The notes under the pieces: generated by a model
Seen by the model: the letters and a program-made list of their open reading frames with translations, nothing else
Databases searched by the model: none
What the model was told of the DNA's origin: nothing
Program-made: the position numbers and the translations under genes
Part shown: positions 6,146 through 23,041 of the stretch, piece after piece
Numbering within the stretch: the first letter of the stretch is position 1
How the letters are laid out: each line of letters begins with the position of its first letter
Origin: Lachnospiraceae bacterium
GTDB lineage: Bacteria > Bacillota > Clostridia > Lachnospirales > Lachnospiraceae
Direction of reading: 5' to 3'
Assembly (NCBI GenBank): GCA_017618195.1
Contig: JAFZUW010000074.1
Span: forward strand, 1 to 64,000
DNA: 64,000 nt

Positions 6146-6149
6146 GTCT

Positions 6150-6323: not shown

Positions 6324-6373
6324 CGTCCTTCTCCTCTTCGCTTTGTTACCGTCACGGTATATTTCTCTGCTGC

Positions 6374-6393: not shown

Positions 6394-6401
6394 TATGGCT
6401 T

Positions 6402-6981: not shown

Positions 6982-7667
6982 GCCTTGTCCGCCTTTCGTC
7001 TCAATGTCTTAAGATACTCTTTATGCTCCTCCGACACGCGGAAGCTTTCGAGCGCCTTTTGGATTGCCTTGTTGTGTGTCCATGTGTCCAATACGTTCTT
7101 CTCAAGGAACGGAACACACGCGTCATACTGCTTCGCAAGCGCCGTGGCAAAATACCACGCAATCATCATCTTGAGGTAATAGTCCTCTCCGCTTTTCGCC
7201 GCGACCAGGGCAGGATATTCTTCTTTGAAGTCCGCGCCCAGAAACTCATTCATAAGCATGCGCATTCCGAATCGGGACGTGTAAACGTGATCCGAAGCAA
7301 TCCATTTGCGGATATACGGAAGCAGCTTTTCATGGTTCTTCGTGAAAACCTTCGGGCTGGACTGGTCGCAGACCGGCCAGCAGTCCACATACGGAAGGAA
7401 CCGTTCCGTTTCGCGGACGCACGCGTCGAAATCCTTGATTAACGCAATCAAAAAGAAATGCACGAGGTTTTCTTCATAATACCGGTGCGGAAGGTTCTTT
7501 AAAAACCGTTCCGCTTCTTCGGTTCCGTTTACTTCCTTGGCGATCCTGCGCATGTCGGGCGTGCGTACGCCCAGTATCGTATCCGCCGGGATGTTCGGCA
7601 CAAGTTTACTCTGAAAAGCCTGATATTTGGCGTCGCAATGTTCTTTCAAACGATCCGCTACCGTCAT
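6978..7667 (-). CDS. AlkD-like DNA alkylation repair protein
   Basis: 229-residue protein of the AlkD / DNA alkylation repair family, built of ALK (HEAT-like) helical repeats. Recognisable segments include GVRTPDMRRIAKE near residue 33, RYYEENLVHFFLIAL, YVDCWPVCDQSSPKVF and the repeat region RFGMRMLMNEFL. Family members bind DNA through a concave basic surface and some excise N3- or N7-alkylated purines. Its ATG directly abuts the TAG of the upstream feruloyl esterase gene, with AAGGAGG overlapping the esterase 3' end. Being in a xylan operon is odd for a repair protein. Whether it is a glycosylase cannot be told from sequence alone. Confidence 0.85.
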   Translation of the reverse strand: MTVADRLKEHCDAKYQAFQSKLVPNIPADTILGVRTPDMRRIAKEVNGTEEAERFLKNLPHRYYEENLVHFFLIALIKDFDACVRETERFLPYVDCWPVCDQSSPKVFTKNHEKLLPYIRKWIASDHVYTSRFGMRMLMNEFLGADFKEEYPALVAAKSGEDYYLKMMIAWYFATALAKQYDACVPFLEKNVLDTWTHNKAIQKALESFRVSEEHKEYLKTLRRKADKA

Positions 7668-8426
7668 CTACGCCTCCTTCCGCGACTCGAAATACGAGCG
7701 AATCGCTGCTGCCATCTGATCCGGATGTACGGTGAAGCAATGGTCGTCTCCGGCAATCGGAACAAGCGTTGCGTTTTTGTACAACTCCTGCGCCTTTACC
7801 GCGTACGAGAACGGTACAATCGGGTCTTCGTCCCCATGGACGATCAGAACCTCGCCGTCGTAGTTTTCGATTGCCTCTTCGGGATGGATGCTCTGCGCAA
7901 CACGGATATAATCTCCAGAGAGTTCCCAGTCGGACCAGGAATTGCACTGCAGCATATCCGGGATATTCTTCGGGTCAAATTCCAGTCCGAGCACCGAACC
8001 GGCTCTCGCATCGTCCGGGATCATCCATGCAGGAGACAGCGGTAGAATAGCTTTCAGCCAGTCTTTGCACATACTTCCGACAAGCATTGTCAGAAGTCCT
8101 CCCTGTGAATGTCCGCTCAGATAAAGATCGGTCACGAAGTCTAAACTTCTCGCGTAATGAAGCGCCGCCAACGCATTTGCAATCCATTTATGCAGTGTAT
8201 GGTTTTTAAACTCTCCGTCGCTTCCGCCGTGTCCGTACATGTCCACGCGGAGTACCGCAACGCCGGCTTCATTCATCGCCTTCTGCGCCGTTATGATATG
8301 GTCTTCCTCCATATGTCCGGTAAATCCGTGGATCAGCACGCAGAGCGGACACCGCTCCGTTCCCTCCGGCCTGTCCAGTTTCGCATGCAGACGCATGCCG
8401 TCACAATCGATATAAAACTCTTTCAT
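7668..8426 (-). CDS. Est1E-like feruloyl (cinnamoyl) esterase
   Basis: 252-residue alpha/beta hydrolase strongly resembling Butyrivibrio feruloyl esterase Est1E as I recall it: FYIDCDGMRLHAKLD start, LIHGFTGH oxyanion region, DMYGHGGSDG, nucleophile elbow GHSQGG (Ser107), HGDEDPIVPF (Asp199) and GDDHCFT (His229). The triad spacing matches the Ser105/Asp197/His225 layout of Est1E closely. It releases ferulate or p-coumarate from arabinoxylan fragments; with no signal peptide it acts inside the cell. The start at 8426 follows AGGAG by four bases; an in-frame upstream extension lacks family features. First gene of the eight-gene operon ending at 2417. Confidence 0.9.
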   Translation of the reverse strand: MKEFYIDCDGMRLHAKLDRPEGTERCPLCVLIHGFTGHMEEDHIITAQKAMNEAGVAVLRVDMYGHGGSDGEFKNHTLHKWIANALAALHYARSLDFVTDLYLSGHSQGGLLTMLVGSMCKDWLKAILPLSPAWMIPDDARAGSVLGLEFDPKNIPDMLQCNSWSDWELSGDYIRVAQSIHPEEAIENYDGEVLIVHGDEDPIVPFSYAVKAQELYKNATLVPIAGDDHCFTVHPDQMAAAIRSYFESRKEA

Positions 8427-8472
8427 ATTCTCCTGCTCACACTTCCGTTTATTCGGTAAACCGTTATTCCTT

Positions 8473-8478
8473 ATCATA
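8473..8478 (-). promoter_or_regulatory. Candidate extended -10 of the esterase-xylanase operon
   Basis: TATGAT with an upstream TGG (extended -10) lies 47 bases before the feruloyl esterase start, just upstream of the operon. No good -35 is found at 16-18 bases, so this is tentative. Confidence 0.35.
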
Positions 8479-8560
8479 CCACATATTTGTCTCCGCGTAT
8501 ACGGAAACATTGCAAAACCACAAGATATCACATGGAAAATGGAATATCCTCCCAAGACGC

Positions 8561-8609
8561 AAAAACCGGGCGGCCGGGCTCCGAATCTTCTTCGAAGCCT
8601 GCCGTCCGG
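8561..8609 (-). terminator. Terminator of the DUF4838-like gene
   Basis: On the minus strand a long imperfect stem starts CCGGACGGCAGGCTTCGAA and closes with TTCGGAGCCCGGCCGCCCGG. It is followed by TTTTTGCG. It lies about 85 bases after the stop at 8695 and before the esterase operon. Confidence 0.7.
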
Positions 8610-8694
8610 CATTTATTATCCCCCTGCCGTATCGTCACGGCATCTTTCTTTCCGCCGCCTGCATATTCCCGCGGCGTGCGGTTTCTTATACTCC

Positions 8695-11600
8695 TTACTC
8701 CGGCGTGTAGTAATAAAACAGCCTGTCCGGAATATCTGGTTCGAGGTTTCCGCCCGGATTGGTGCTTGAGAACTTGCCGATCATACTGTCGCTTTCCCTG
8801 AACCAGTTGTCCGGATGGTTTCCCGTATAAACGCAGTCCGAGGTAAGCTTTCCGTGAATTGCCGAGAAGTATGTTATGTCGAGGTTCTTCATGTCACGGA
8901 TCAGTTTCGCATTTTCCTGCGAGTAAGTGGACACGTTGTTGAACTCATACACGTTCAGCGTGGATTTGATGAGTCTCCAGCTGAGTTCGAGTTTCTTAAT
9001 CCTGGTGCGGACTTCGTCAGGCTCCTCTTCCGCGATCCGGTTGATCTCCTTCCACAACCCTTCGCAGATGCCGATCTCGGAATCCGGCATACGCCCGTTC
9101 ACCACCTTCTGTTCATCCCAGTAATGAACGCCGGCAAATGTGGTAAGAAGCCTCGTATTGTAAAGACACGTGTCATCCCGGTGATTGACGATCTGATGAT
9201 GGTTCCGCGCCTGCTGTTCGATATGCTTCATGTACTCGCGTACATAGATTCCGGCATTGCCGTACAGCGTATCGGTGATAAACGCAAGCTCTTCCTCGTA
9301 GTCTCTCGTCGGATCCTGCAGGAGGCGTCCTTCAATGTAATTCCGGATATCGCCGAACTCGGAGTCCGACTCAAGATGCCGCGAATTGCTCTGCAGGTAT
9401 ACGCCTTCCACACCGAGCTCATAATAAAGCTTGAGGTCATTCTGCATGACGCTCACGTTCGCATATACTCCCGCCGTCGTCATGAAGTTCGAGTTGTAAT
9501 CCCAGATCCACACATGCTTGCAGATCTTGGTCCAGTTTACGAGTTCCTGATAGTATTTGGCGTTGGTCACGTGGTTCGCCGTGTTCAGATTGTGCGCGTA
9601 GCATCTGCGGATCGGCGCGTAGCGGATGATCACGTGATCGTCGCATACGATATCCTTCGGAGGCGCTTCGACCGTCCACTCATAGGCAAGCATATCGATG
9701 TACAGGTTCGGATATGCTCCGTTTTTATGCAGGTCCTGCGAAATCTTGTTAAGCAGCTGCACATATTCAACGGATTCATACAGTCCTCCGCTGTTTCCGT
9801 GGGCAATCCGGTCATTGATGCACTTTGAACACAGACACAGATCGGAACCATCGTTTTTGGAGATCGAAATGATCTGGATCGGCGCGTTCGGATCGTAACT
9901 GTTCGCGATCATGTCGTAACAGTGCTGCAGTACGATTGCATATGCCTCGGGATCGTTTACAAGCGCGTACGGACACATCTGGGAAGAATTTCTGGTCCGC
10001 TGCGCGTCGGGAACCTGGTGTTTCTGCTCATCCCATGAGGATGCCGCATACCATTCGGGATGCGAAGCAAAATAAGTCTCCGCGGGGAAGAACTCCGCAA
10101 GAAGCGTGTGTGCCTGTCCCGCTGCCAGGCCCTTCACGGTTCTGGGCGACGAATACTGGCTTGTCGTACACGCGGTCAAATACCACGTCTCACGTCCCGC
10201 CTCGGTCTTCGGCAGGCAGTACGTATCGGCGTAGAAGCCGTTCAAACCGAACGCGAGCGAGAACAGACGGCCCGTGCGCGGATACTGGTCCGACGGCCGG
10301 TTGTAGTTGCCGTTTAACGGATCCGTCAGGTCATGACGCGGATCTATGCTTGAAAAGCAGATATCCATATCGGTAAAAAGGAACGGTCTTTCGTAATCGA
10401 TCCGGATACCCGAAGTCTCATACTTGAAATGATTCTGGTTGGTCCGGTAAAGGTCGTTCCACGACAGGTAATAATAGCCGCCGAACGCTTCCAGAAAACG
10501 CATCGCGCCGTGCATCAGTCCGAGCTGTCCGACACCCGTGATCGCGATGCCGCCGTTATAGGAACGGATGCAGTAGCTGTCATTTGAACTGTATGTTGCT
10601 TTTGCGAAGGAACGGTTCGTGTTTCCGACCGAAATCTCAAACGGATACGTTCCCGCCTTCTTCGCATCGGTCACGATCTGAGGCGTATAGCCGTCCTCTT
10701 CTTTGATGTATTTCTGCAGAAGCTTTGCCGCATACTCTTCTTCCGCGGTCGCATTTGCCGGCGTCACGATAACCGCGACGGGCATGTCAACCGTGTATTT
10801 GCTGTTCATGTAATCCGAGTAATCCGTGACCGGAACGGTCTGCATGCTCTCGAGGCATTCCTGAAAAGCGAGATTGTACCAATAGATGCTTTTTACAAGC
10901 TTGCCGAGGCGGTCCTGCGGATTCACTGCAAGCGCGTCGCAGGCATACGAAAGAACGCTGTAGGAAAGTGTCGACTGCTTTCCGTCAATCGATACGGAAA
11001 GCTCATAAGTATGGTCGATATCCCATGCGAGTACGTCCGGGATCTCAATATAATACAGAGCATAATCGGCACCGATCTCGTACTGCTTTACCTGATCCGC
11101 ATCGATGGTCACACCGTCCACCTGAATGAGCGACGATCCCGGAAAACCGGTAAACTTATAGTAATGGCGGATTGTAATCGTGTCGTTCAGCACAAGGCTG
11201 CTTCCGTAATAGGTAATATATGCCGGCAGCTGCCCCGTCATGTTCATCCGGTATGCGGAGAAATCCGCATCCGCAACCGTAACACCGATCGTATCGGAAA
11301 CGAAATAGTTGTATGCGCAGCAGCCGTATACGTCGATTGCCTTTGCAAGACGTCCCATCTCGTCATCCCGGTTCTCGATTTCGGTCAGGTAATCCTTTAC
11401 CGAGTAGTTCAATACTCCGTTCACCGCTCCCGAATTGGTCAGCGCGATCTTCGTATTACCGGAATACAGCGTGATGGACAGTTTCTTCACTACATCCTTT
11501 GCATCCACAAAATGCGTCACCTTATAGGTTCCGTCCGCCTGCTTCGCGGAAAGGCTGTGGGAAACTCCGTCCACCGTGACCCTGCCGTTTTTCGCCTGTG

Positions 11601-11799
11601 TGTCGGTAATACCCGTAAAGAACAGATTCATTCCGAGTCTGCCTTCCGAAACCGTAAGCGAACAGCCGGCCGCTTTGGCACCGTTTTGGGAAGCGTCTGC
11701 CCTTCCCGCTCCCATCTCGGACAGAATTCCGATCAGAAGAACAAGGCAAAGGGCAAACGCAGGGAAGCGGCGCCAATGTCTCCTCATGATGTTTCTCAT
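8695..11799 (-). CDS. Secreted DUF4838-type protein with a novel N-terminal module
   Basis: Secreted protein of 1034 residues. A signal peptide (FALCLVLLIGILSEMGAGRADA) is followed by a module of about 290 residues (37-325) that is nearly the same as in the neighbouring beta-helix protein. From about 345 on (VIVTPANATAEEEYAAKLLQKYI) the protein looks like the DUF4838 family, related to GH67 alpha-glucuronidases and other hexosaminidase-like barrels: GGYYYLSW, HPEWYAASSWDEQKHQ, SISKNDGSDLCLCSKC and YIDMLAYEW are conserved-looking segments. A role in cleaving glycans outside the cell is inference. The start follows GAGGAG by nine bases. The gene lies 108 bases after the beta-helix gene, with a hairpin between. 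Confidence 0.8.
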   Translation of the reverse strand: MRNIMRRHWRRFPAFALCLVLLIGILSEMGAGRADASQNGAKAAGCSLTVSEGRLGMNLFFTGITDTQAKNGRVTVDGVSHSLSAKQADGTYKVTHFVDAKDVVKKLSITLYSGNTKIALTNSGAVNGVLNYSVKDYLTEIENRDDEMGRLAKAIDVYGCCAYNYFVSDTIGVTVADADFSAYRMNMTGQLPAYITYYGSSLVLNDTITIRHYYKFTGFPGSSLIQVDGVTIDADQVKQYEIGADYALYYIEIPDVLAWDIDHTYELSVSIDGKQSTLSYSVLSYACDALAVNPQDRLGKLVKSIYWYNLAFQECLESMQTVPVTDYSDYMNSKYTVDMPVAVIVTPANATAEEEYAAKLLQKYIKEEDGYTPQIVTDAKKAGTYPFEISVGNTNRSFAKATYSSNDSYCIRSYNGGIAITGVGQLGLMHGAMRFLEAFGGYYYLSWNDLYRTNQNHFKYETSGIRIDYERPFLFTDMDICFSSIDPRHDLTDPLNGNYNRPSDQYPRTGRLFSLAFGLNGFYADTYCLPKTEAGRETWYLTACTTSQYSSPRTVKGLAAGQAHTLLAEFFPAETYFASHPEWYAASSWDEQKHQVPDAQRTRNSSQMCPYALVNDPEAYAIVLQHCYDMIANSYDPNAPIQIISISKNDGSDLCLCSKCINDRIAHGNSGGLYESVEYVQLLNKISQDLHKNGAYPNLYIDMLAYEWTVEAPPKDIVCDDHVIIRYAPIRRCYAHNLNTANHVTNAKYYQELVNWTKICKHVWIWDYNSNFMTTAGVYANVSVMQNDLKLYYELGVEGVYLQSNSRHLESDSEFGDIRNYIEGRLLQDPTRDYEEELAFITDTLYGNAGIYVREYMKHIEQQARNHHQIVNHRDDTCLYNTRLLTTFAGVHYWDEQKVVNGRMPDSEIGICEGLWKEINRIAEEEPDEVRTRIKKLELSWRLIKSTLNVYEFNNVSTYSQENAKLIRDMKNLDITYFSAIHGKLTSDCVYTGNHPDNWFRESDSMIGKFSSTNPGGNLEPDIPDRLFYYYTPE

Positions 11800-11907: not shown

Positions 11908-14883
11908 TCACTCGTATACCCAGGGCTCGGCCTGCTGAAATACCGTCTTCGTGGGATCGTAATGGAACTGCGTCTTTGAGAACAGGATCTCATCGTTGTT
12001 GCTCTCATTCGGATTCTTGATCGAAACTCCCTTAAACTCATTTCCGATCAGTTCCTCATTCATGAGGATCTTGAGATTGCTTAACGAAACATCCTTCACG
12101 ATACGGAGCGGATACTTGTATTTATCGGGGTTATTCAGATAAGCTTCGGTGATCACGCTGTCCGTATCCGCGAGCAGGTTCGTAAAGATCTGGAATCCGC
12201 TTGTGGCGGTGAACGAGGTCGATGTAACCTTGCTTGCATCAAGGACGAAACCGTCGATGACCACGTTGGTCGGCATCGTACAGTAATAGGTCTTCCCGCC
12301 TTCCATGATCGGGTCATAACCGTACGGATACATTGCATCGTAACTTGTGAAGATCAGACGCGGCGAGTAGTTGCTCTCCGCCAGTCTCCAGGTACAGTTC
12401 TTAATGACGATGTCTCCGTTCCAGTAACTTCCGAAGTCTCTCCGGAGACTGATGAAGTGCGTGGAATATGCGGTAACGTTTTCGACATACAATGTTCCGA
12501 AACCGACAGCAGCGATTCCCCTGTAGCCGAGAACCGAATCCTTTACAGTCAGGTTGTAAGTTCCCATATGCGCATCGATACGGTTGATGCGGCAACCGTT
12601 CTGAACAACCAATCCCTTACAGAAGTTCGTTCCGGTCGTGCCCCATCTTGATTCATCCAGAATACCCGTCGGATCGGCGGGACCCGTAAGGTCATCCGGG
12701 GTCGCCGCACAGGTACAGCCGTCAAGCGTGACATTCGCGCAGTATTCCGCATAGAAATCATACGGCGCGGTGGAGTTCGTATTGTTGCCGTAACTGAAGA
12801 TGCGCAGATGGTTGGAAAATACGCAGTCCTTAAGCGTTACATAAGCACAGTTGTGCACATGGAAGAAGCCCTGATACGGAGCACCGAGTCTCGGAACATA
12901 CTTGGTTTCTTTCGTTTCGTCGTCAATATAAGCGCTGTTCGACGTAAACATCTTGTCTTCGCCGAGCAGATAATGCTGCACTCCGATCAGTTCCGTATTG
13001 GAACGCTCCACGTTGATTCCGCGCAGCACATACGTGTGGGAATTCATCGTATTTACCTTCGTGTAGAATGTGCCTCCGCGAACCGTAAGCGTCGTCTTAT
13101 CGATCGGATACTTCTTGATATCGCAGATCTCGTCCCAGTCCCACTGAAGCGGGGTGCTGCTGTCAATCGTGCCGTCCGCCCGGACGATAATTGCTTCCGT
13201 CTGGTCGCGAAGGTCGGCAGTCGCAGTTGCGGAACCGTTCCGTCCCCATCTCTTGAAAGATGCGGAACGAAGCACATACAAAGCATCTTCCTTAAAGTCT
13301 CCCTCAAGCTTCGTGGTCTCTTTGGAAAATGACCGGTTGATCATTGCAAGAGCCTTCGGAGCGGAGTAATTCCTTCCCGAGCCGAGACTGTAATCGGGAT
13401 AATCGCTCATGTTCGGGTCCATTCCGAGATAGATATGGATGTCGCCCGGCTGAGGATCTTCGTTCGAACTGCGGAATACCCATTTGCCGTTATCCTTTTG
13501 ATACCACCAGAGACCCTGGTTCATCCATTTTCTTTCGGATGCCTTCCGCGAGGCGATCGTGAAGAGAACGCAGTCCTTGTCGGGGATATAATACTCGGTG
13601 ACGGTCTCACCTTTCGCATTCTTGGTCGTCTTGGAAAGAACCTTCATTCCCGAGTCATCGATGATAAACTCTGCGCCGGTCCAGTCCGTGTCGGTCTGCA
13701 CCAGAGCACCCTTCGGGTTGCTCGTGTCCATATGTCCGATGTAGTATTTCGCTCCGGGAGTTGCTTTAACGGGAAGGTCCATCTCATTGGCCGTCTGATG
13801 CGCCAGAACGATCGCGTCGTAGTCGTCCGTTACACCGTCGCCCTTTGCACCGAACATCTCATAGGTGATGTAATCGGTCTCCACCTCTTCCCCGCCGTGG
13901 TACTCGCTGTACGGGTCCGGGGACTGTTTTGCCTCGCGGAATGCGAGGTTGTACCAGTAGATGCTCTTTACGAGGTTTCCGAGCGTATCGTCGGGATTCA
14001 CGGAAAGCGCGTCATGGGCATACGTCAGGACGCTGTAGGAAAGCGTCGACTGCTTTCCGTCGATCGAGATGGAAAGCTCATACGAATGATCGATGTCCCA
14101 CGCAAGAATACCGGGGATCTCGATATAATAAAGCGCGTAATCGGCTCCGACCTCATACTGCTTGACAGCGGCCGCATCGATCGGCGTACCGTCAACCTTA
14201 ATCAGGGACGAGCCCGGAAAATCGGTAAACCTGTAGTAATGACGGATGGAAATCGTATCGTTCAATACGAGGCTGCTTCCGTAATAGCTGACATATGACG
14301 GCAGCTGTCCGGACATACTCACCGCGTACGCGGAGAAATCCGCATTCTGAACGGACACCGGAAGCTTTCCGCTCTTTGCCGGCTTAAAATAGTTGTACGC
14401 GCAGGTGCCGTACGTGTCGATTGCATTTGCCAGCCGTCCGATCGCGCTGTTTTTATCCTTCAGATTGGCAAGATAATCCTGCACGGAATAGAGAAGGGTT
14501 CCTCCTACCGCGCCCGAATTGGCAAGTGCGATTTTGGTGTTTCCGGAATACAACATGATCGTGAGCTGCTTCACCACATCCTTCGGATCCACATAATGCG
14601 TCACCTTGTAGGTGCCGTCCGACTGCTTTGCCGAAAGATTGTGAGAAACGCCGTCCACCGTAACCCGGCCGTTCTTCGCCTGGCTGTCGGTGATCCCACT
14701 GAAGAAAATGTTCATGCCGAGCTTGCCTTCCCCTACCGTGAGGGAAAAACCGGCAACCCGGGCGCCGCTTTGCGAAGCGGCTGCGGCCCTGCCTCCGAAG
14801 TTTAAAGCCGCACTTAACAGAACCGCCGCGCATAAGATAAGCGCCAGAAAGCGGTCTGCAAGCCTTCCAGATGATTTTTTCAT
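11908..14883 (-). CDS. Secreted parallel beta-helix protein (pectate-lyase-like)
   Basis: 991-residue secreted protein with a signal peptide (FLALILCAAVLLSAALNFGGRAAA). Residues about 37-325 are the same unrecognised module as in the DUF4838-type neighbour. From about 340, YEMFGAKGDGVTDDYDAI is the hallmark start of pectate_lyase_3 / GH28-like right-handed beta-helices. Repeated strand turns follow (LRGINVERSNTELIGVQ, VTLKDCVFSNHLRIFSYGN, VTLDGCTCAA, LTVKDSVLGY), with many N-G-C coil positions. The enzyme activity (lyase, hydrolase or none) cannot be assigned. The start follows GAGGAG by eight bases. It is probably the first gene of a two-gene unit, with a -10 at 14942-14947. Confidence 0.82.
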   Translation of the reverse strand: MKKSSGRLADRFLALILCAAVLLSAALNFGGRAAAASQSGARVAGFSLTVGEGKLGMNIFFSGITDSQAKNGRVTVDGVSHNLSAKQSDGTYKVTHYVDPKDVVKQLTIMLYSGNTKIALANSGAVGGTLLYSVQDYLANLKDKNSAIGRLANAIDTYGTCAYNYFKPAKSGKLPVSVQNADFSAYAVSMSGQLPSYVSYYGSSLVLNDTISIRHYYRFTDFPGSSLIKVDGTPIDAAAVKQYEVGADYALYYIEIPGILAWDIDHSYELSISIDGKQSTLSYSVLTYAHDALSVNPDDTLGNLVKSIYWYNLAFREAKQSPDPYSEYHGGEEVETDYITYEMFGAKGDGVTDDYDAIVLAHQTANEMDLPVKATPGAKYYIGHMDTSNPKGALVQTDTDWTGAEFIIDDSGMKVLSKTTKNAKGETVTEYYIPDKDCVLFTIASRKASERKWMNQGLWWYQKDNGKWVFRSSNEDPQPGDIHIYLGMDPNMSDYPDYSLGSGRNYSAPKALAMINRSFSKETTKLEGDFKEDALYVLRSASFKRWGRNGSATATADLRDQTEAIIVRADGTIDSSTPLQWDWDEICDIKKYPIDKTTLTVRGGTFYTKVNTMNSHTYVLRGINVERSNTELIGVQHYLLGEDKMFTSNSAYIDDETKETKYVPRLGAPYQGFFHVHNCAYVTLKDCVFSNHLRIFSYGNNTNSTAPYDFYAEYCANVTLDGCTCAATPDDLTGPADPTGILDESRWGTTGTNFCKGLVVQNGCRINRIDAHMGTYNLTVKDSVLGYRGIAAVGFGTLYVENVTAYSTHFISLRRDFGSYWNGDIVIKNCTWRLAESNYSPRLIFTSYDAMYPYGYDPIMEGGKTYYCTMPTNVVIDGFVLDASKVTSTSFTATSGFQIFTNLLADTDSVITEAYLNNPDKYKYPLRIVKDVSLSNLKILMNEELIGNEFKGVSIKNPNESNNDEILFSKTQFHYDPTKTVFQQAEPWVYE

Positions 14884-14903
14884 ATAATACTCTCCTCTGC
14901 ATG

Positions 14904-14924
14904 TTCAAAACTGTTGGTTTTGAA
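14904..14924. repeat. Palindrome in the 5' leader of the beta-helix gene
   Basis: TTCAAAAC-TGTTG-GTTTTGAA, an 8-bp perfect inverted repeat, lies between the -10 and the ribosome binding site, the position of a downstream operator or a leader hairpin. Confidence 0.6.
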
Positions 14925-14941
14925 ACAATACTAACGAGAGT

Positions 14942-14970
14942 ATTATACTATAAATGATTGCCAAAAGAAA
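14942..14970 (-). promoter_or_regulatory. Promoter of the beta-helix gene
   Basis: Perfect -10 TATAAT (14942-14947) on the minus strand with a weak -35 (TTTCTT, 14965-14970) at 17 bases. The poor -35, together with the GAACAAAAT direct repeats just upstream, suggests that an activator is needed. Confidence 0.55.
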
Positions 14971-15035
14971 GGGAAATATGAATAAATTTTGAACAAAATT
15001 ATGAACAAAATCCACAAATCGATCGCTTTCCAAAG

Positions 15036-15063
15036 AAAAAGCCGCAATCCGATGGCTGCGGCT
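15036..15063 (-). terminator. Terminator downstream of the peptidase-E-like gene
   Basis: Minus-strand AGCCGCA-GCCATCGGAT-TGCGGCT followed by TTTTTCTTT: a 7-bp stem and U-tract. It lies about 220 bases after the stop at 15282, so the transcript would have a long 3' end. Confidence 0.75.
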
Positions 15064-15281
15064 ATATGGATGAATATGCTTTTGATTCGGTTGAAATTCC
15101 AAAAATGGATATATTTTTGCGTCTGTCCGGATTTACCGGCGGAAAATGTGCGTTAAGCCGGCGCAGGCTTGATCTGTTCATAATTTCGGAATCATCTGTA
15201 ATCCGGCCGTACGCGGATAATACTAATCCGTTAACCGGAACGAGCGGTATTCACAAAGAAAAAGTGTTTAAGATTTTTAAA

Positions 15282-16034
15282 TTACTTCCGTTCCTGCCCT
15301 CCGAGAATGATGCTTCCCCCGTTCCGGCAGATCTGCTTCATCACCCCGTCTTTAATGCTGTAAGCCTCTCCGTATAATGTTTCGACACCGTTCTCGGATA
15401 CTATATAGCTCCCGTTATTGAGCGCGGTAATCTCGTGCCCCATACTATCGGCAAATGTGATGTCTTCGATCAGCCGCATCCCGTCGAGCATTTCCTCCCG
15501 AAGACTTTCAAAATGCGGAAAGATATTTGTTTCGGTGAGCCCCAGTCCGCTGATCCAGCGGCGGTAAGAAGGATCGATTGCTTCTCCCGGAAGCTCGGGT
15601 CCCGCGTACACGGTCTTTGCGCTGTTCATGGAGCCTGCACTCCACGCAAGAATAAGTCCTTTATAATCCGCAAGCTTTTCCTTAAGACCGATTTCTTTCA
15701 TAAACGCGTTCTGTGTCGGAACATGCCCGCCGGCAAGAATAACGGCGTCCGTCTCCGGAATATGTCCGGCAATATCCTTATTCCTTCCGTCGCACATCAG
15801 AAACTCCGAATGGCTTAGACCGCTCAGCCGGAAAGACTCTTTCAGACAATTCCGCACATCATCATTTTTTTCGTAATACTCCGGCGATCCGCTGATGATC
15901 AGCACCTTGGATTCCGGCTTCCAGACGGATCTGAGAAGCTGCAGCAGCCCGTTATCCTCCGATAAAGCTGTCGGGATCCTCCTGCCGTTTGCTTTGATCT
16001 GCCCGCCGAGGGAACTTGTCAGAATTGTTTTCAT
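15282..16034 (-). CDS. Peptidase E-like (S51) class I GATase-fold protein
   Basis: 250-residue protein of the peptidase S51 / dipeptidase E-like group. AWSAGSMN carries the nucleophile Ser132 in a nucleophile elbow. AVILAGGHVPTQNAFM precedes it, as in cyanophycinase and aspartyl dipeptidase relatives, and LGLTETNIFPHFE supplies the downstream His region. Members hydrolyse dipeptides with N-terminal Asp or related isopeptides; the substrate here is unknown. Cytoplasmic, no signal peptide. The start at 16034 is chosen because the family begins with a strand like KTILTSSL and the longer frame has no support. A consensus promoter lies 61 bases upstream, so the gene is monocistronic. Confidence 0.82.
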   Translation of the reverse strand: MKTILTSSLGGQIKANGRRIPTALSEDNGLLQLLRSVWKPESKVLIISGSPEYYEKNDDVRNCLKESFRLSGLSHSEFLMCDGRNKDIAGHIPETDAVILAGGHVPTQNAFMKEIGLKEKLADYKGLILAWSAGSMNSAKTVYAGPELPGEAIDPSYRRWISGLGLTETNIFPHFESLREEMLDGMRLIEDITFADSMGHEITALNNGSYIVSENGVETLYGEAYSIKDGVMKQICRNGGSIILGGQERK

Positions 16035-16094
16035 TTTCTCGCCGCCTTTCCCGAACGGTTTCCGTATTGCGCGGTAACCGGTAATAATGTTTCG

Positions 16095-16123
16095 ATTATA
16101 TTCTTTATCCGGGATAATATCAA
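16095..16123 (-). promoter_or_regulatory. Promoter of the peptidase-E-like gene
   Basis: Minus-strand TTGATA (16118-16123), 17-base spacer, TATAAT (16095-16100): close to the housekeeping consensus. Confidence 0.8.
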
Positions 16124-16149
16124 CATGTTTTTCCGGCAAATGTGAAACA

Positions 16150-16168
16150 GGGCCGCAAACTGCAGCCC
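16150..16168 (-). terminator. Probable terminator of the SIR2 gene
   Basis: Minus-strand GGGCTGCA-GTT-TGCGGCCC (one G-U pair) followed by TGTTTCACATTTG. The stem is good but the U-tract is poor. It is the only candidate between the SIR2 stop and the next promoter. Confidence 0.5.
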
Positions 16169-16239
16169 CGCCGTGTCATTGTCCGTAATTACTTTGTGCT
16201 TTTCTTTACCGGTCTTAATACCTGATAAAAGCTTTGATA

Positions 16240-19200
16240 TTAATCTTTATCTAGGAGTTCAATAGCTTTTTCAGGATTCTCACCGTATTGACTGTATTTG
16301 CCAGGATTTAGATTGCGTTCAACAAGCTTCCAGGCAAAACGTTGAATAGAAGAAAAACCTTTTAGCCTAGCTAACTCGCATATTATTTTATCCGCATTAA
16401 ACTCATAAATTGTCTCAGAATAATTTGTCATTTTGTCTATTGAAGAAATGACATCATCATATAAGTTATCTGTTTTTTCGAGACAATCCTCAATGCTATG
16501 CCACAATCCCGACTTAGAAAGGGAAAGATCTATCATTGGACAAATAACCTTCCAGTCATCCTCCGTTATTCTTTCTTTGCGGGATAAGTAATTAATTATT
16601 CCCTTTGCATACTGTGCTTTTGAATCATCGTCAATTATCATGCGAAGCGTTTCGTCGATTAGCATGTAGCATTGCTTTTCTTCGATGCCTTTAATCCCTT
16701 CACATATTGTCCACGCCACATGATTCATTGCATCTTCTTCCAGTGTCTGGAGAAAATGCCGATATTTTTCTTGAGGAAGAAGTCCAAAATGGTAGGCCGC
16801 AACCATATAGGTTATAAAACAATCTGCGTTTCGGTATTCCCGACCGTCTTTTTTTATCACCAAAGAAATGTCATCTATCATTTCGAAAGGTGCGCAAAAA
16901 TTGACCACCAAAGGTATAATAACCGATGTACCACTACACATAGCCAGAGCAACACCAGCTGCGTCTTCAGCACTCCTTAAAACAGGAATGACTAACGACT
17001 TTGTTTTTTTCTTATCAAGATAGAGGAGATTCTGTATCCTAAATGCACAAGCGTAGATAAGCCACTTTCCTGGATTATTCTTTATGGCATCAGTAAACCA
17101 TGCATAGAACTGCTCTTTAAGATCATTTACCTCTTTACAAGCGGCGATGCTATCAATAGTCAGTGAAAAGAACTGACTTTCTGCGACATTAATGATATTC
17201 ATTATCACATCCATGTTTTCATGATAAGGCTCATCATTAACAAAGAGTCTGGCAGGGTCAAAGGAAAGAAGCAGTTCTCCTATTTCTTTTTGTTTCCATC
17301 CAATTTTAGAAAGCTGTTGTAAGGCATATACGAAACTAGAAGTTAACTGAGCGCGTTCTTTTGCGGTGACATCCAATTCACAGATTATTTCATATAACCT
17401 CTGTATGAATGACTTAAGTGTATCACTGGGTATTCTGCAAACAATCGAATCATCAAACAACAAGGAAGCTACTGCGCATAACTCATCTCCTGATTTAGAA
17501 AGCATAAAGTCGACAAACGAACATAACTGTGAATCTGAGATTTTCTTTCCCATCTCTTCAATGAGTTCACGAACATAGTAATACTCATTGCTCCACACTG
17601 ACTTTTCTTTTTCTACTACAATCTTTCCGTAAAGCTCTTCCGCAGAATATGTTGAAAAATCATCATTAGCAAAATGCTCTTCAAGCGGAACATCTCGGAC
17701 CGTATAGTATCTCTCCTTATCTTCAATAGGGGTTTTTTCGTCAAAGCGGACCTCTTCTTTGATTTGATCCCTCAATTCTGCAACTCTCGGATTGACCCGC
17801 GATAAAAGATCAAACAGAAGATATCGCCATGTATTTACCCATTTTATACTGGTGTCATACCAAGTGTTTTCTTTCTCAAGATCATATCCAAAAGACGCCT
17901 GACTGATCCAATCAATAAGTGTCCCAACATCCGCATCATCGTAATGACTAGATGCCAGAAATGAATCTAACCATATGTAAAAATCTACAAATACATGAGA
18001 AAATGATAACGGATTCTCCGCAAAGTCACTCACTTTTCCTTGTGACACCTTTGCTGCTAGGTGAAGAGAAAATTGCCATGTATCTGTAGAATCCGCCTTT
18101 CGTAACAAACCAGATATAATCCTTGTTTGCGTTTCGGAATCCATGTTCTCCAAAAAGATTTCTATAGAATTATACAAGGAAAAGGCATAGCCGGATCTGA
18201 CGAAATGATACCTATCATCAAAGCTTCTATAAAATGGGTTTGGTTCTTCTGCTTCAAGAAACATTGCAAGGCAATATTCAATAATCCGTTCGAGAACCTG
18301 ATTATCGTGGAATGAAGAAATCTCTTGCGCAAGTTTGGGAAACCAATATGAACGGTGTTCCTGGTTTTCAATTTCTCCTGATGCAAAAAAAGCGCAAAAG
18401 AGTTGTGCTGCCTTGTCCCTAGCACATTCAATTACTCTTCCGCAATAGTTTCGTTCCATTAAGCTTATTGCCCAATCGGAACTACTGGCCCAAGCATTCC
18501 ATAACGCCATTTCAATGTCGTCTTCAGGCAATTTACCTAGATTGAGATACACTTCCCAGAGTTGATTGATTACGAATTGGTTTTTCTGGACGTTTTCGTT
18601 TTTGTATGCTTCTGCTATTGCTTTTTTGACAAATTCTGTTATCCGTAGTTTTTCGTGTTCTGCGGGTTCTTTTCTTTTTATGCAGGACAAAATACACGGC
18701 AAAATTGGCCAATTAACATAACTATATGATTTTTCGTTTATTCTCTTAATAACAGGAATCTCGTCGGGGTTTATAATTTCTTTATCGAATAAAAAGATAA
18801 TCCAATCATAACAGTGCAGACACTGCGGAAGAGCGTCTAGCATAGCCGTTAAATCTTTAAGTGAATCTGGTCGCCCCAATCTTTGTTCAATATCGTGACA
18901 ATTTTTGACGGAAAAGTCATCAAGTGCCTCTAATACAGCAAGAATGCCACGACTATTATAGGATGTTTTATTTTTCAGTTCATCTATCCACTCGGAAATG
19001 ATTCTAGCTTGCTGGGCATAACCACATTCGTCTTTGCTGTATGGGATTAGATTTACACCGATGCTTGCGAAATACTCAGCCTTTGCGTTACATAATTCCT
19101 GCTGATATTTAAAGAACCCCTCTAATAGATAATGCTTCAATGGTTTTAAGGGAGGTACAGGTTCAAAAGCAGCATTGATTATTTCGAATTCGGTCAAGCC

Positions 19201-19812
19201 ATAACCAATAAATAATACTGTTTTATCATGCATAACCTGCTTTAAAAAAATCGGCAGTTGATTCCCCGGTTGATACTCTGATAGATACTTATCTTCAGTA
19301 AAAATCAATCGCTCTTTCTCTTCCACAGTTCCGTTACCCCAATTTCCATGTAGGCAATAAACGAAAGGCTTATCAGAGCGTCTTAAGTATTCATCCTTGG
19401 AACAGTCTGTCGTGTACGAGTAAGGGAACTTTTCTACTAACAGACCATCGCAGTTGGTGGTTAAAAAAAGTGTATCAAATAGCGCTATTTTTGCGTATAT
19501 ATCCTCTTTTTTCGGGTCTGGACTAAGCGCACCACGAAATACTTCCCAGAAATCCGCTGTCTTATGTTCTTTTTCAGCAATCCTTTTCGCGATGGTTATT
19601 TTCTCCTTACTGTTTGAACAACTGGATTTAACTTGATCTGCCATGGCTGGAGTGCAGACTTTGTCGACCAATGCATTAGCCATCTGATCCCATCCCTGGC
19701 ACCCCATCAACCGCGAAATGCCCGCCCCTACAAATACTGCTAATTCGTGCCGCTCATAGGCCTCTATAATTCCTTTGGGAAGTGCGGGGGAAAGTTCAAT
19801 ATGTGTATCCAT
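16240..19812 (-). CDS. Large SIR2-domain protein, defence-associated sirtuin-like
   Basis: 1190-residue protein. Residues about 20-290 form a SIR2-like NAD-binding domain: LAVFVGAGIS (GAG at 29-31), FLTTNCD (Asn120, Asp122), YCLHGN (His155) and LFIGYGLTEFEI (203-205). The remaining 900 residues show no P-loop and no named domain; they read as helical, repeat-like sequence, as in DSR-type defence sirtuins, which deplete NAD after phage recognition. STAND-type Avs5 is unlikely without a P-loop. The gene is clearly more AT-rich than its neighbours. It starts 10 bases after the stop of an hsdS remnant, with GAGGAGG before the ATG. Antiphage function is inferred from family and context only. Confidence 0.8.
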   Translation of the reverse strand: MDTHIELSPALPKGIIEAYERHELAVFVGAGISRLMGCQGWDQMANALVDKVCTPAMADQVKSSCSNSKEKITIAKRIAEKEHKTADFWEVFRGALSPDPKKEDIYAKIALFDTLFLTTNCDGLLVEKFPYSYTTDCSKDEYLRRSDKPFVYCLHGNWGNGTVEEKERLIFTEDKYLSEYQPGNQLPIFLKQVMHDKTVLFIGYGLTEFEIINAAFEPVPPLKPLKHYLLEGFFKYQQELCNAKAEYFASIGVNLIPYSKDECGYAQQARIISEWIDELKNKTSYNSRGILAVLEALDDFSVKNCHDIEQRLGRPDSLKDLTAMLDALPQCLHCYDWIIFLFDKEIINPDEIPVIKRINEKSYSYVNWPILPCILSCIKRKEPAEHEKLRITEFVKKAIAEAYKNENVQKNQFVINQLWEVYLNLGKLPEDDIEMALWNAWASSSDWAISLMERNYCGRVIECARDKAAQLFCAFFASGEIENQEHRSYWFPKLAQEISSFHDNQVLERIIEYCLAMFLEAEEPNPFYRSFDDRYHFVRSGYAFSLYNSIEIFLENMDSETQTRIISGLLRKADSTDTWQFSLHLAAKVSQGKVSDFAENPLSFSHVFVDFYIWLDSFLASSHYDDADVGTLIDWISQASFGYDLEKENTWYDTSIKWVNTWRYLLFDLLSRVNPRVAELRDQIKEEVRFDEKTPIEDKERYYTVRDVPLEEHFANDDFSTYSAEELYGKIVVEKEKSVWSNEYYYVRELIEEMGKKISDSQLCSFVDFMLSKSGDELCAVASLLFDDSIVCRIPSDTLKSFIQRLYEIICELDVTAKERAQLTSSFVYALQQLSKIGWKQKEIGELLLSFDPARLFVNDEPYHENMDVIMNIINVAESQFFSLTIDSIAACKEVNDLKEQFYAWFTDAIKNNPGKWLIYACAFRIQNLLYLDKKKTKSLVIPVLRSAEDAAGVALAMCSGTSVIIPLVVNFCAPFEMIDDISLVIKKDGREYRNADCFITYMVAAYHFGLLPQEKYRHFLQTLEEDAMNHVAWTICEGIKGIEEKQCYMLIDETLRMIIDDDSKAQYAKGIINYLSRKERITEDDWKVICPMIDLSLSKSGLWHSIEDCLEKTDNLYDDVISSIDKMTNYSETIYEFNADKIICELARLKGFSSIQRFAWKLVERNLNPGKYSQYGENPEKAIELLDKD

Positions 19813-19822
19813 TTCAGCCTCC

Positions 19823-20031
19823 TCATTTCAGCTTTTCGCACAGTGGCAACAGTTCTTTCAGCTTAATCACGATACTCTTCTATTCTGTAAACAGGGGAAG
19901 AGGAATAACCATATTCTGAATTCATATTATCGCCAGCCTTGGTTCTTCCTGTGGGGATTCTTTTTTCAGCCAAATACCGAGACGAGATTTCCTAAGCGTT
20001 CCCATCTCCATTTCTCAGGAATATCAAATGT
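19823..20031 (-). pseudogene. hsdS: Remnant of type I restriction specificity subunit (hsdS)
   Basis: Two minus-strand fragments in order. At 20031-19966 the sequence reads TFDIPEKWRWERLGNLVSVFG then stop, the typical start of an HsdS target-recognition half (F-D-I-P-E-x-W-x-W-x-R-L-G). At 19879-19823 it reads KSIVIKLKELLPLCEKLK then stop, the usual HsdS C terminus. The two are about 85 bases apart instead of several hundred, are in different frames, and an A-run before the first fragment adds another frameshift (ISEISDDKK lies in the adjacent frame). So the gene is deleted and shifted. Its stop lies 10 bases before the SIR2 ATG, showing that the SIR2 gene once followed hsdS in one operon. 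Identification rests on motif memory. Confidence 0.6.
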
Positions 20032-20128
20032 TTTTTATCGTCGGAGATTTCAGATATAGATTTTTATTATAAATGTTTTGGCTGTTATTTTCAATATTAT
20101 TTTTTTGCTTATTGGTGGCACAATCATG

Positions 20129-20196
20129 ACCACTAGCTGGCTAGTGGTTTCCTCTGCGACTATAAGCCACTGTTCCCTGCTTGCCTCGAAAGAGGC
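20129..20196. repeat. Paired perfect hairpins, possible IS-end remnant
   Basis: ACCACTAG-CTGG-CTAGTGGT (20129-20148) is a perfect 8-bp stem. GCCTC-GAAA-GAGGC (20183-20196) is a perfect 5-bp stem with a GAAA loop. Such subterminal palindromes occur at ends of IS200/IS605-type elements, but no transposase is present. Confidence 0.45.
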
Positions 20197-20366
20197 TCTG
20201 AACCGTCCGCTTTCATATCCGAATATTTCAGCTTCATAAAAAACCCTTATAAGACTTCTGATAGTGCTATGAGGGGTATCGCTATTCAATGCATCATATA
20301 TTAGTGGGTGCTGTATGGGTGCTACCGTCAGTTTTCGAGCAGTTCTCAGCGTGCTTTTCAGATAAA

Positions 20367-20401
20367 AGGAAAACCTCGCAAACGCAATGTTTACGAGGCT
20401 T
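20367..20401 (-). terminator. Terminator of rplM-rpsI
   Basis: Minus-strand CCTCG-T-AAAC-ATTGC-GTTT-G-CGAGG followed by TTTTCCTTTT. The stem has one mismatch. A-rich sequence before the stem would let it act on the opposite strand too. Confidence 0.8.
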
Positions 20402-20438
20402 TTCGTTGTTTTTGATAAAAAAGTAAGTTCGCGACTGA

Positions 20439-20837
20439 TTATCTCTTCGAGAACTGCGGTGCACGACGAGCTGCTTTCAAGCCGTACTTCTTTCTTTCCT
20501 TCATGCGGGCATCTCTGGTAAGGAAGCCTGCCTTCTTGATAGCCGGACGGTTCTCAGCGTCTGCCTTGCAAAGGGCACGTGCGATACCGTGACGGATAGC
20601 GCCTGCCTGGCCGGAAAATCCGCCGCCGCGTACGGTTACGATAACGTCGTATTTGTCAGCAACACCGAGAAGTTCAAGGGGCTGACGAACGATAACCTTA
20701 AGGGTCTCAAGACCGAAATAGCTGTCAATGTCCTTCTTATTGATGGTTACATTGCCTTTACCAGAAAGTAAATATACTCTGGCAACACTGCTCTTACGTC
20801 TTCCTGTTCCATAGAATTTGGAATTATTCTTTGCCAT
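20439..20837 (-). CDS. rpsI: Ribosomal protein S9
   Basis: 132-residue 30S protein near the decoding centre. The body carries [13 protein letters not shown], the domain [21 protein letters not shown] and the invariant C-terminal tail RRAPQFSKR, whose last residues contact P-site tRNA. Length is normal. It follows rplM by 24 bases and both share the promoter at 21362-21390. The 3' end borders the AT-rich island; the coding sequence and tail are intact, so any insertion there did not damage the gene. Confidence 0.98.
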
Positions 20838-20861
20838 ATTCGTAAATCTCCTTTCTGCTTA

Positions 20862-21290
20862 TTAGAACTTGAGCTCTTCGGGCTTCTGTGCTGCATGCGG
20901 ATGCTCAGCACCTGCATAAACATGAAGCTTCGAAAGCATGCTTCTGCCGAGCGGTCCCTTCGGAAGCATGCCCTTTACTGCAAGGGTAATAACGTCCGCG
21001 GGCTTCTTCGCGATCATCTCACGAAGAGTAACTTCTCTCATTCCGCCCGGATAATCGGAGTGGCTGTAGTAAATCTTCTGATCAAGCTTCTTTCCGGTTG
21101 TCTTGATCTTCTCTGCATTGATTACGATTACATAATCACCGGTATCGATGTGAGGCGTAAAGATCGGCTTATTCTTACCTCTCAAAACCTTTGCGATTTC
21201 GGAAGAAAGACGACCGAGGGTCTGTCCGTCTGCATCAACAACGTACCATTTTCTCTCAACGTCAGCGGTTGCTGCCATATAGGTCTTCAT
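20862..21290 (-). CDS. rplM: Ribosomal protein L13
   Basis: 142-residue 50S assembly protein. Diagnostic segments are [20 protein letters not shown] at the N terminus, [24 protein letters not shown] and [12 protein letters not shown] near residues 110-121. The start has AAGGAGG seven bases upstream. First gene of a two-gene unit with rpsI, transcribed from a consensus promoter. The leader of about 65 bases contains two small hairpins and may bind L13, as proposed for L13 leaders in Firmicutes. Confidence 0.98.
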
Positions 21291-21311
21291 TGGTGTACCT
21301 CCTTATTCTTT

Positions 21312-21348
21312 CGGGCGCGAGCCCGTACCATGTTCCTTTTGCGGGAAC
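21312..21348 (-). promoter_or_regulatory. Structured leader of rplM
   Basis: Within the rplM 5' leader, GTTCC-CGCAAAA-GGAAC (21332-21348) and CGGGC-TCGC-GCCCG (21312-21325) form adjacent hairpins, on the minus strand, just before the ribosome binding site. This is compatible with an L13-type autoregulatory leader; that identity is inference. Confidence 0.45.
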
Positions 21349-21361
21349 AGTCACTTTCCGC

Positions 21362-21390
21362 ATTATACTGTACGGAAAAGCATATGTCAA
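21362..21390 (-). promoter_or_regulatory. Consensus promoter of rplM-rpsI
   Basis: Perfect TTGACA (21385-21390), 17-base spacer, perfect TATAAT (21362-21367) on the minus strand. Confidence 0.92.
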
Positions 21391-21416
21391 CATTTCTTTT
21401 CCGATTTTCGCATTAT

Positions 21417-21455
21417 AAAAGCGGAAAATGTCACATTCAATATGACATTTTCCGC
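21417..21455 (-). terminator. Terminator of truA, 13-bp palindrome
   Basis: GCGGAAAATGTCA and TGACATTTTCCGC form a perfect 13-bp inverted repeat with a 9-base loop (21421-21455), followed by TTTTAT on the minus strand. It begins 34 bases after the truA stop. The arms contain the GGAAAATG motif seen in other spacers here. Confidence 0.75.
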
Positions 21456-21488
21456 CATATCTTTTCGAAAGCACGCCTATTTACGGAT

Positions 21489-22244
21489 TCACTCTTCGTT
21501 TCCGCCGTTATCGTACCAAATCTTACAGAGGCGAAGCCCGTTTGCGGGTGCGGTCGGGCCGGCCAAAGCCCTGTCCTTTCCTTCTATGATTGCCTGCATG
21601 GATTCCGGCTCGAACCGGTGCAGTCCCGCCTGTATAAGCGTTCCCGCAAGGATACGGACCATATTGTAAAGAAATCCGTCACCCGTGACGGCGATCACGA
21701 TCTTCCCGTCCTGCTCCGAAACCGTAATCGAGAAAATCGTACGTACCTTGGTTTTCACCTGCGCGCCTGCCGCGCAGAAGCTCGTGAAATCGTGTGTACC
21801 GATCGCGTACTGCGCCATGCGGTTCATTGCATCAATATCCAAAGGTCCGCGCACATGCGCCGCATAACGGACGTCCAAAGGCGAACACACCGCCCCCGTC
21901 ACGATATGGTATTCGTAACGCTTCCGGTGCGCGTCAAACCGCGGATGAAACGTTTCCGGGACCTCTTCCGACTCCATGATGCGGATATCGTCCGGCAGGA
22001 ACGGATTCAGCGCATAGGAGAACTTCTCACCGGGAATCGGCGATTCCGTATCGAACACGGCAACATTACCGAGCGCATGCACGCCCGCATCGGTCCGGCT
22101 CGCACCGATCAGTTCCGGTTTCACGCCGGTAAGCTTTCCGATCGCGTCCGCAACCGTCTCCTCCACCGTCACGCAGCCTTCCTGACGCTGCCAGCCCGAG
22201 TAAGCCGTCCCGTCATATGCGATTGTCAGTTTGATCCGTCTCAT
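21489..22244 (-). CDS. truA: tRNA pseudouridine(38-40) synthase TruA
   Basis: 251-residue enzyme that isomerises U38-U40 in the tRNA anticodon arm. The N terminus RRIKLTIAYDGTAYSGWQRQ is typical, SRTDAGVHALGN contains the catalytic Asp, and FLYNMVRILAGTLIQ near the C terminus is the conserved TruA signature. The ATG at 22244 overlaps the ecfT stop as ATGA and follows AAGGTGG; a GTG two codons earlier is less likely. Last gene of the ecfA-ecfT-truA unit, an order common in Firmicutes. Confidence 0.95.
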   Translation of the reverse strand: MRRIKLTIAYDGTAYSGWQRQEGCVTVEETVADAIGKLTGVKPELIGASRTDAGVHALGNVAVFDTESPIPGEKFSYALNPFLPDDIRIMESEEVPETFHPRFDAHRKRYEYHIVTGAVCSPLDVRYAAHVRGPLDIDAMNRMAQYAIGTHDFTSFCAAGAQVKTKVRTIFSITVSEQDGKIVIAVTGDGFLYNMVRILAGTLIQAGLHRFEPESMQAIIEGKDRALAGPTAPANGLRLCKIWYDNGGNEE

Positions 22245-23041
22245 AGCCACCTTCTGAGGATGATTACCGCGGTAAGATATACCGCCAGATACACCAGTGC
22301 CAGCCAGTCTCTCAGCTTAAACCTTAACGGGCGCATTTTCGTCCGCCCTTTGCCGCCGCGGTAGCACCGCGCCTCCATTGCAAGTGCGAGGTCAAATGCC
22401 CTGCGGAATGCGGACAGCAGCAGCGGAATAAAGATCGGTACCATCGCCTTCACTCTGCGTAGTATGTTTCCGCTTTCAAAGTCCGCGCCGCGCGCCTGCT
22501 GCGCCTTCATGATCTTGTCGGTTTCCTCGAGAAGGATTGGGATAAACCGAAGCGCGATCGACATCATCATGGCAACGTCATGTACCGGAACTCCGATCCA
22601 CGAAAGCGGCTTCAACAGCCGTTCAAGACCGTCTGTCAGCTGCACGGGCGTCGTCGTGAACGTCATCAGAGACGACCCTAGGATCAGAAGAAGCAGCCTG
22701 CACCCGAAGAACGCGCCCCGGTACAGTCCTTCCTTCGTAATCTTGAAGACCCCGAACTTCCAGATCACCTCGCCGGGCGTTAAGAAGAAGTTGAATAAAA
22801 CCGTCATGATCAAAAGGACCAGAATCGGTTTAAGACCTTTTAACGTATAACGAAGCGGAACCTTCGATAAAAACAGCAGCGCGCCGAGAAATACGACCGC
22901 GACCGCCAGCCCGGCAAATGAGTCAAACAGAAACAGACTCACGATATAGACGAGCGTGCCGATGATCTTCACACGCGGGTCCAGTCTGTGAATCAATGAC
23001 GAGACCGGATAATATTGTCCGATTGTAATCTCGCGGAGCAT
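22241..23041 (-). CDS. ecfT: Energy-coupling factor transporter membrane subunit EcfT
   Basis: 266-residue membrane subunit joining the ATPases to interchangeable vitamin-binding S components. Five or more hydrophobic helices are seen (IIGTLVYIVSLFLFDSFAGLA, ILVLLIMTVLFNFFL and others). The two coupling motifs are present: QQARGADFE near residue 183 and AMEARCYRGG near residue 232. The N terminus ITIGQYYPVSSLIHRLDPRVK is standard. It lies 60 bases after the ecfA fusion gene and overlaps truA. No S component gene is in the window, so this is a group II ECF module serving unlinked substrate-binding subunits. Confidence 0.95.
   Translation of the reverse strand: MLREITIGQYYPVSSLIHRLDPRVKIIGTLVYIVSLFLFDSFAGLAVAVVFLGALLFLSKVPLRYTLKGLKPILVLLIMTVLFNFFLTPGEVIWKFGVFKITKEGLYRGAFFGCRLLLLILGSSLMTFTTTPVQLTDGLERLLKPLSWIGVPVHDVAMMMSIALRFIPILLEETDKIMKAQQARGADFESGNILRRVKAMVPIFIPLLLSAFRRAFDLALAMEARCYRGGKGRTKMRPLRFKLRDWLALVYLAVYLTAVIILRRWL

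Follow-up and report, generated by a model that had tools for sequence, protein, structure and literature searches.

A far-diverged DSR1-like SIR2 protein as a probable single-gene antiphage system in a Lachnospiraceae genome

The DNA analysed here, called the window throughout, is a stretch of 64,000 nucleotides from a Lachnospiraceae bacterium (assembly GCA_017618195.1, contig JAFZUW010000074.1, positions 1 to 64,000). On its minus strand, at 16240..19812, it carries a dsr1-like gene for a protein of 1190 residues (P0001) in which a SIR2 domain is followed by a long C-terminal region. Sequence comparisons make it probable that this protein is a far-diverged antiphage system of DSR1 type, made up of one gene and acting as an NADase (an enzyme that cleaves nicotinamide adenine dinucleotide, NAD+). 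It is most likely a strongly diverged addition to known DSR1-like defence, and not a new kind of system. This assignment draws on a match to a Dsr1 family model over residues 4-424, a clade of SIR2 domains with 99/98 support, collinearity with a relative from another bacterial family, a match between pooled profiles of C-terminal regions, the alignment of catalytic residues, and horizontal transfer of the gene.

The SIR2 domain and its relatives

The open reading frame (ORF) listing and its translation give 1190 codons plus a stop, with an ATG start and no internal stop. A first-pass annotation, made from the letters of the DNA, had described an intact frame with the SIR2 motifs GAG, TTNxD, HG, and GYG in its N-terminal part. 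A motif scan located all of them on the minus strand: GAGIS at residues 29-33 (19714..19728), which is kept in all three rows of the alignment, TTNCD at residues 118-122 (19447..19461), HG at residues 155-156 (19345..19350), and GYG at residues 203-205 (19198..19206). GAGxS and TTNxD are described as common to the SIR2 domains of Avs5, DSR1, DSR2, ThsA, and Ago-associated proteins in the available text of one study (PMC12931631). The NADase-type SIR2 domain spans residues 1 to ~283 (18964..19812, minus strand), as delimited by Pfam SIR2_2, the PADLOC Dsr1 model, and DSR2 chains in the PDB. SIR2_2 was the sole Pfam family found, at residues 114-210 (E 1.1e-12; 48.7 bits, cutoff 24.5), and no Walker A pattern is present in the 1190 residues, so that the reported lack of a P-loop holds.

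A profile built from the window protein and two relatives aligned with the solved DSR2 chains over residues 12-258 (E 2.5e-14). With positions counted by hand, Asn120 of the TTNCD motif lies opposite DSR2 Asn133, and His155 of the HG motif opposite DSR2 His171; the earlier choice of Asn120 and His155 as key residues agrees with this alignment. Alanine at N133 or H171 lowers the NADase activity of DSR2, according to the portion of the report available (PMC10981675).

The PADLOC Dsr1 model PDLC04166 matched the window protein at residues 4-424 (234 bits, E 6e-70), and when residues 1-290 were used by themselves it matched residues 4-285 (E 1.2e-63). Two other proteins, L051 (from G848) and L050, match the same model nearly end to end, L050 over positions 7-1174 of 1198 (299 bits), and the lengths of the compared proteins are similar (1187-1219 residues). 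A tree of 58 SIR2 domains, taken from matches found in this analysis, showed successive nesting: the window protein grouped with its close copy in another genome, L001 (100/100), then with L050 (99/95), and then with L051 (99/98). A Vibrio domain joined this side with weak support. Three NCBI-named Dsr1 proteins, L053, a Rhodococcus protein, and four other matches formed a separate, distant group (100/100). Within the set that PADLOC names "Dsr1", this placement and the model match put the window protein on the side of PDLC04166. The assignment to the defence-associated-sirtuin type, proposed in the first-pass annotation from the layout, is supported by sequence.

The C-terminal region and its link to Dsr1

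The C-terminal region (residues 291-1190; 16243..18942, minus strand) is presumed to serve in sensing and oligomerisation and is probably a diverged DSR1-type region. Evidence for this comes from its collinearity with L050 and from a pooled-profile match that needs L050. The first-pass annotation had found no known domain in these 900 residues, and this stands for the region on its own, but the Dsr1 model runs on through the linker to residue 424.

L050 belongs to another family of the same order and is collinear with the window protein over residues 7-1116 (24% identity, E 6e-68). The C-terminal regions by themselves also find that of L050. With blastp, E was 1e-8 for the window protein (collinear) and 4e-11 for L001, against 0.73 for the best control; with phmmer, E was 1.9e-8 for the window protein (best control 0.28) and 2e-12 for L001 (best control 0.013). 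The controls were 200 shuffles, 20 rows from 15 other SIR2-hit proteins, both forward and reversed, and reversed L050.

Comparison of profiles extends this relationship to Dsr1. A three-row profile of the C-terminal regions of the window protein, L001, and L050 was compared by hhalign with nine pooled Dsr1 C-terminal regions. Three aligners gave scores of 67.3, 82.2, and 77.5. When one sequence at a time was left out (27 runs), the scores ranged from 36.2 to 84.3 and were lowest without the Vibrio sequence. Among the controls, 40 column shuffles gave no score above 23.1, 14 unrelated single C-terminal regions none above 30.6, and two reversed profiles none above 25.0. Within Dsr1 itself, the C-terminal regions of the NCBI-named side relate to those of L051 and the Vibrio protein (hhalign E 1e-10). 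It is thus likely, if not settled, that the sensor half and its counterpart in Dsr1 are homologous. The link hangs on one bridge sequence, because the comparison is positive only with L050 in the profile.

Several results weigh against a DSR1-kind assignment. Neither PADLOC (searched at E up to 10) nor Pfam (searched at E up to 1) has a model that matches the C-terminal 900 residues of the window protein taken alone. The same holds for the C-terminal region of L050, so its end-to-end Dsr1 alignment is carried by the SIR2 part. Neither the window protein and L001 without L050 (22.2-28.1) nor L050 alone (22.9-28.4) scored better than controls against the pooled Dsr1 profile, and the three-row profile failed to match when set against the L051 and Vibrio subset (31.9), against five Dsr1 proteins of the NCBI-named side (27.0), and against L028 singly, itself a Dsr1 (23.6). 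In hmmsearch with Dsr1 C-terminal profiles, the window region gave nothing above shuffles, and the L001 region came only just above the best shuffle, with one of the aligners (9.4 bits, best shuffle 7.7); the first 140 C-terminal residues of L050 were found with a three-sequence Dsr1 profile (E 8e-5). The NCBIfam Dsr1 model NF041818, which scores an E. coli Dsr1 at 1674 bits, left the window protein unmatched at E up to 1, its equivalog cutoff of 1400 bits not being reached, and the NCBI-named Dsr1 domains lie on a branch of the SIR2 tree distant from the window protein. In addition, none of seven flanking reading frames tested in the window matched a PADLOC family, and no experiment on the window protein was found in the literature.

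The main rival is a sensor module of separate origin. In this account, the DSR1 clade would have supplied the SIR2 domain and a linker of Dsr1 type (to about residue 424), and a sensor of other origin, with a target unlike those of DSR1 and DSR2, would have been fused to them in the common ancestor shared with L050. The end of the recognisable Dsr1 match at residue 424, the unmatched C-terminal regions of both proteins, and the loss of the profile match without L050 or against Dsr1 subsets would all fit such a chimaera. Against it, the three-row profile matches pooled Dsr1 more strongly than any control does, whichever of the three aligners is used and in each of the 27 leave-one-out runs; the order is collinear, and the protein lengths agree. 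On balance, we regard the chimaera as improbable, though it deserves to be kept in mind, and divergence from a DSR1-type protein is preferred. The collinearity with L050 and the pooled Dsr1 profile likewise make a new module, as first suggested for the C-terminal sensor, less likely, while a new ligand is possible. In this respect, the window protein, L001, and L050 may tentatively be set apart among DSR1-like proteins as a subfamily of their own, with a C-terminal region that diverged so far, or was replaced, because it senses a phage component unlike those of DSR1 and DSR2; if true, this would add a new trigger to those by which phages set off SIR2 NADase immunity.

That the protein is instead a DSR2, a Thoeris ThsA, or an Avs5 is very unlikely. 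Its SIR2 domain is similar to the DSR2 chains and to the ThsA models of PADLOC (E 3e-7), but the latter match only residues 15-208 and the C-terminal region matches no PADLOC or Pfam family. ThsA, which carries the label STALD in PADLOC, combines SIR2 with a C-terminal SLOG/STALD domain. Avs5 was set aside with the absence of a Walker A pattern and of any P-loop STAND ATPase family in the PADLOC and Pfam scans. DSR2 was compared through a contrast set of seven long SIR2 proteins of the phylum. One of these, L118, gave an end-to-end match with solved DSR2 (E 4e-92) and was the only contrast protein so tested; the C-terminal regions of the other six are related to that of L118, less strongly for L117 and L123. 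In PADLOC (E up to 1e-10), all seven had matches to the SIR2 part only and none to a Dsr2 model. The three-row profile of C-terminal regions scored 15.4-20.7 against these proteins, single or pooled. The PDB search with the profile of the window protein and two relatives aligned DSR2 with residues 12-258 only, besides a meaningless stretch at -4.5 bits. Among solved structures in the PDB generally, the best match to the C-terminal region had E 2.2, which is likewise meaningless. The profile comparison proposed by the first-pass annotation, with DSR1, DSR2, ThsA, and Avs5, points to a DSR1-like protein, and by the features tested it is neither Thoeris nor Avs5.

Related architectures were also seen. 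L052 encodes, at 5958-9587 of the minus strand (G767), a protein with a Dsr1-type C-terminal region (PDLC04166 positions 292-1120) and no SIR2 match, whose N-terminal part taken alone falls just below the cutoff for PF18165, a predicted pPIWI-associating nuclease (26.1 bits, cutoff 26.3). This protein suggests that sensors of the Dsr1 type can also be paired with other effectors. On a Vibrio coralliilyticus plasmid (L054:4980-8721, plus strand), a DSR1-like system occurs as two overlapping genes, for a SIR2 protein and a C-terminal protein of 942 residues. In the window protein itself, a stretch of 19 residues starting with residue 952 forms a hydrophobic peak (mean 2.03). The sensor half of this protein escapes the family models tried, and surveys that require full-length model coverage may miss proteins of this type; L050 provides a bridge sequence for building a better model.

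Transfer, distribution, and genomic context

The full-length copy in L001, a locus of a metagenome-assembled genome titled uncultured Lachnospiraceae bacterium RUG13475, is 87% identical to the window protein. A blastn comparison of positions 14901-22400 delimited a block common to both genomes at 16227..20021 (minus strand, 90% nucleotide identity), comprising the gene and the relic of an hsdS tail, and gave no match outside it: the L001 copy lies at a site unrelated to that of the window. Between the same two genomes, the synonymous divergence (dS) of the gene is 0.285, compared with 1.69 for rpsI; that of rplM was saturated and not computable. The ratio of nonsynonymous to synonymous divergence (dN/dS) is 0.22 overall, 0.14 for residues 1-290, and 0.25 for residues 431-1190. 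A gene dS far below that of rpsI, together with a dN/dS of 0.22, indicates from sequence comparison that the gene has been horizontally transferred and is under purifying selection. As possible hot spots of the sensor, dN/dS values of 0.45 at residues 596-680 and 0.42 at residues 936-1020 were set aside, since they come from 85-codon windows of one pair, with too few changes to interpret.

The hsdS relic (19821..20026, minus strand, limits approximate) lies almost wholly within the shared block. The hsdS debris noticed at first is real but small: in L001, it is an unbroken piece of 47 residues that falls just below the Methylase_S cutoff (E 3e-4; 21.3 bits, cutoff 22), and stops interrupt the corresponding frame in the window. 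An intact type I restriction-modification locus was considered as context and rejected. Methylase_S was found in neither of the two genomes (both contig-level assemblies), and control genomes were positive in 9/14 cases; its absence from both marks the debris as the relic of a type I locus. A gene that moves with a dead hsdS fragment shows travel as a single cargo. Beside the copy in L001, at 1327-2994, is a Schlafen/AlbA_2 protein with partial PADLOC Argonaute-associated matches (best E 6.7e-15), and an RHS-like frame, identified by eye, lies farther out.

Matches extending beyond the SIR2 part were found in 2/392 genomes of the order, including the window's own, in 1/397 genomes of the family, which is the window's own, and in one of 24 genomes of the L050 family, which is that of L050; all other matches in these searches covered the SIR2 part only. 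Within the genus, the other 21 of 22 genomes gave no DNA match to the gene among the candidates scored, 13 each in nearly all of them and all 27 in one, G1299. Phage records contained no match. Three pattern scans of viral contigs, whose reach is that of close relatives or of what two short patterns allow, gave none that was confirmed. In plasmid records, the matches listed cover the SIR2 part only and none covers 80% of the query. A cellular, non-defence sirtuin, acting for example in protein deacylation or NAD control, would share the motifs common to other sirtuins, but with this patchy occurrence, transfer between lineages, and defence models as the top PADLOC matches it is highly unlikely.

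The gene is AT-rich, as had been noted, with a G + C content of 38.6% compared with 50.1% for the window, and the five lowest of 303 sliding stretches of 3573 nucleotides all overlap it. It stands alone between rpsI (end 20439) and an S51-peptidase-like gene. The first-pass description of a gene isolated in an island is right about the isolation and only partly right about the island. A Shine-Dalgarno sequence, AGGAGG, read from the sequence, lies 5 nucleotides ahead of the ATG (19818..19823, minus strand). A promoter-like TTGAAA-17-TATAAT (20066..20094, minus strand) agrees at 11/12 positions and is weak, the region having 8 such sites where shuffles expect 12.7. Similarly, a terminator-like hairpin following rpsI (20370..20402, minus strand) is one of 3 sites where shuffles expect 3.5. 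Upstream of the gene is the relic end of an insertion sequence (IS), 84 bp long (20119..20202, no strand assigned) and 84-93% identical to six copies in the same genome and genus; from its hairpins and the adjoining reading frame, judged by eye, it appears to be of the IS200/IS605 type. Copies of this end lie near contig ends in the window's own genome and in several genus genomes. Repeats around the gene amount to one chance-like direct pair. A dedicated defence spot after rpsI was also rejected: downstream content, with reading frames compared by eye, varies across the eight genus loci with downstream sequence, two more loci having ended too soon for comparison. Elsewhere in the window, adjacent large reading frames at 8695-11799 and 11908-14883 have N-terminal stretches that look alike by eye; the former carries DUF4838 and the latter has no Pfam match.

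Proposed mechanism and comparison with known systems

In the proposed mechanism, the NADase-type SIR2 domain is followed by 900 residues that probably form the far-diverged counterpart of the Dsr1 C-terminal region. By analogy, this region may keep the protein inactive in an oligomer and would bind a phage component made during infection. Binding would then open the SIR2 catalytic pocket for cleavage of NAD+ dependent on Asn120 and His155, the level of NAD+ would drop, and the phage cycle would not be completed. The gene itself appears to be carried from genome to genome as one block of cargo. The analogy is with DSR2 (PMC10973363, PMC10981675, PMC11263360); in this distant analogue, the phage component is the monomeric tail tube protein. 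For the window protein, the catalytic residues, the architecture, the placement of the SIR2 domain, the transfer, and the selection are shown by sequence, and the oligomer, the phage trigger, the loss of NAD+, and the outcome are inferred. DSR1, unlike other such systems, is described in the accessible text of a further report as stopping phage without cell death (PMC10952713), so it should not be taken for granted here that the infected cell dies.

Among known systems, DSR2 of Bacillus subtilis (structures such as 8k98) is like the window protein in its SIR2 domain, where the catalytic Asn and His align, and presumably shares the logic by which C-terminal sensing leads to SIR2 activation, but its C-terminal region has no detectable relation to that of the window protein. 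The NCBI-named Dsr1 proteins (NF041818; L100, L101, and L102) are similar in having a SIR2 domain and a long C-terminal region; they differ in that their model misses the window protein, their SIR2 branch is distant, and their C-terminal profile, used by itself, is not matched (27.0). DSR1 in the sense of PDLC04166, as in L051, is like the window protein in its SIR2 clade, in being one long protein of similar length, and in the linker to residue 424. In a multiple alignment, L051 is 29% identical over the SIR2 part and 16% over residues 431-1190. The family model fails on the C-terminal part of the window protein taken alone, and a similarity to the C-terminal region of Dsr1 shows in profile comparison when L050 is added on one side and several Dsr1 sequences are combined on the other. 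The window protein also resembles DSR1 as a single-gene system, the block common to the window and L001 holding only the gene and the hsdS relic at these two loci.

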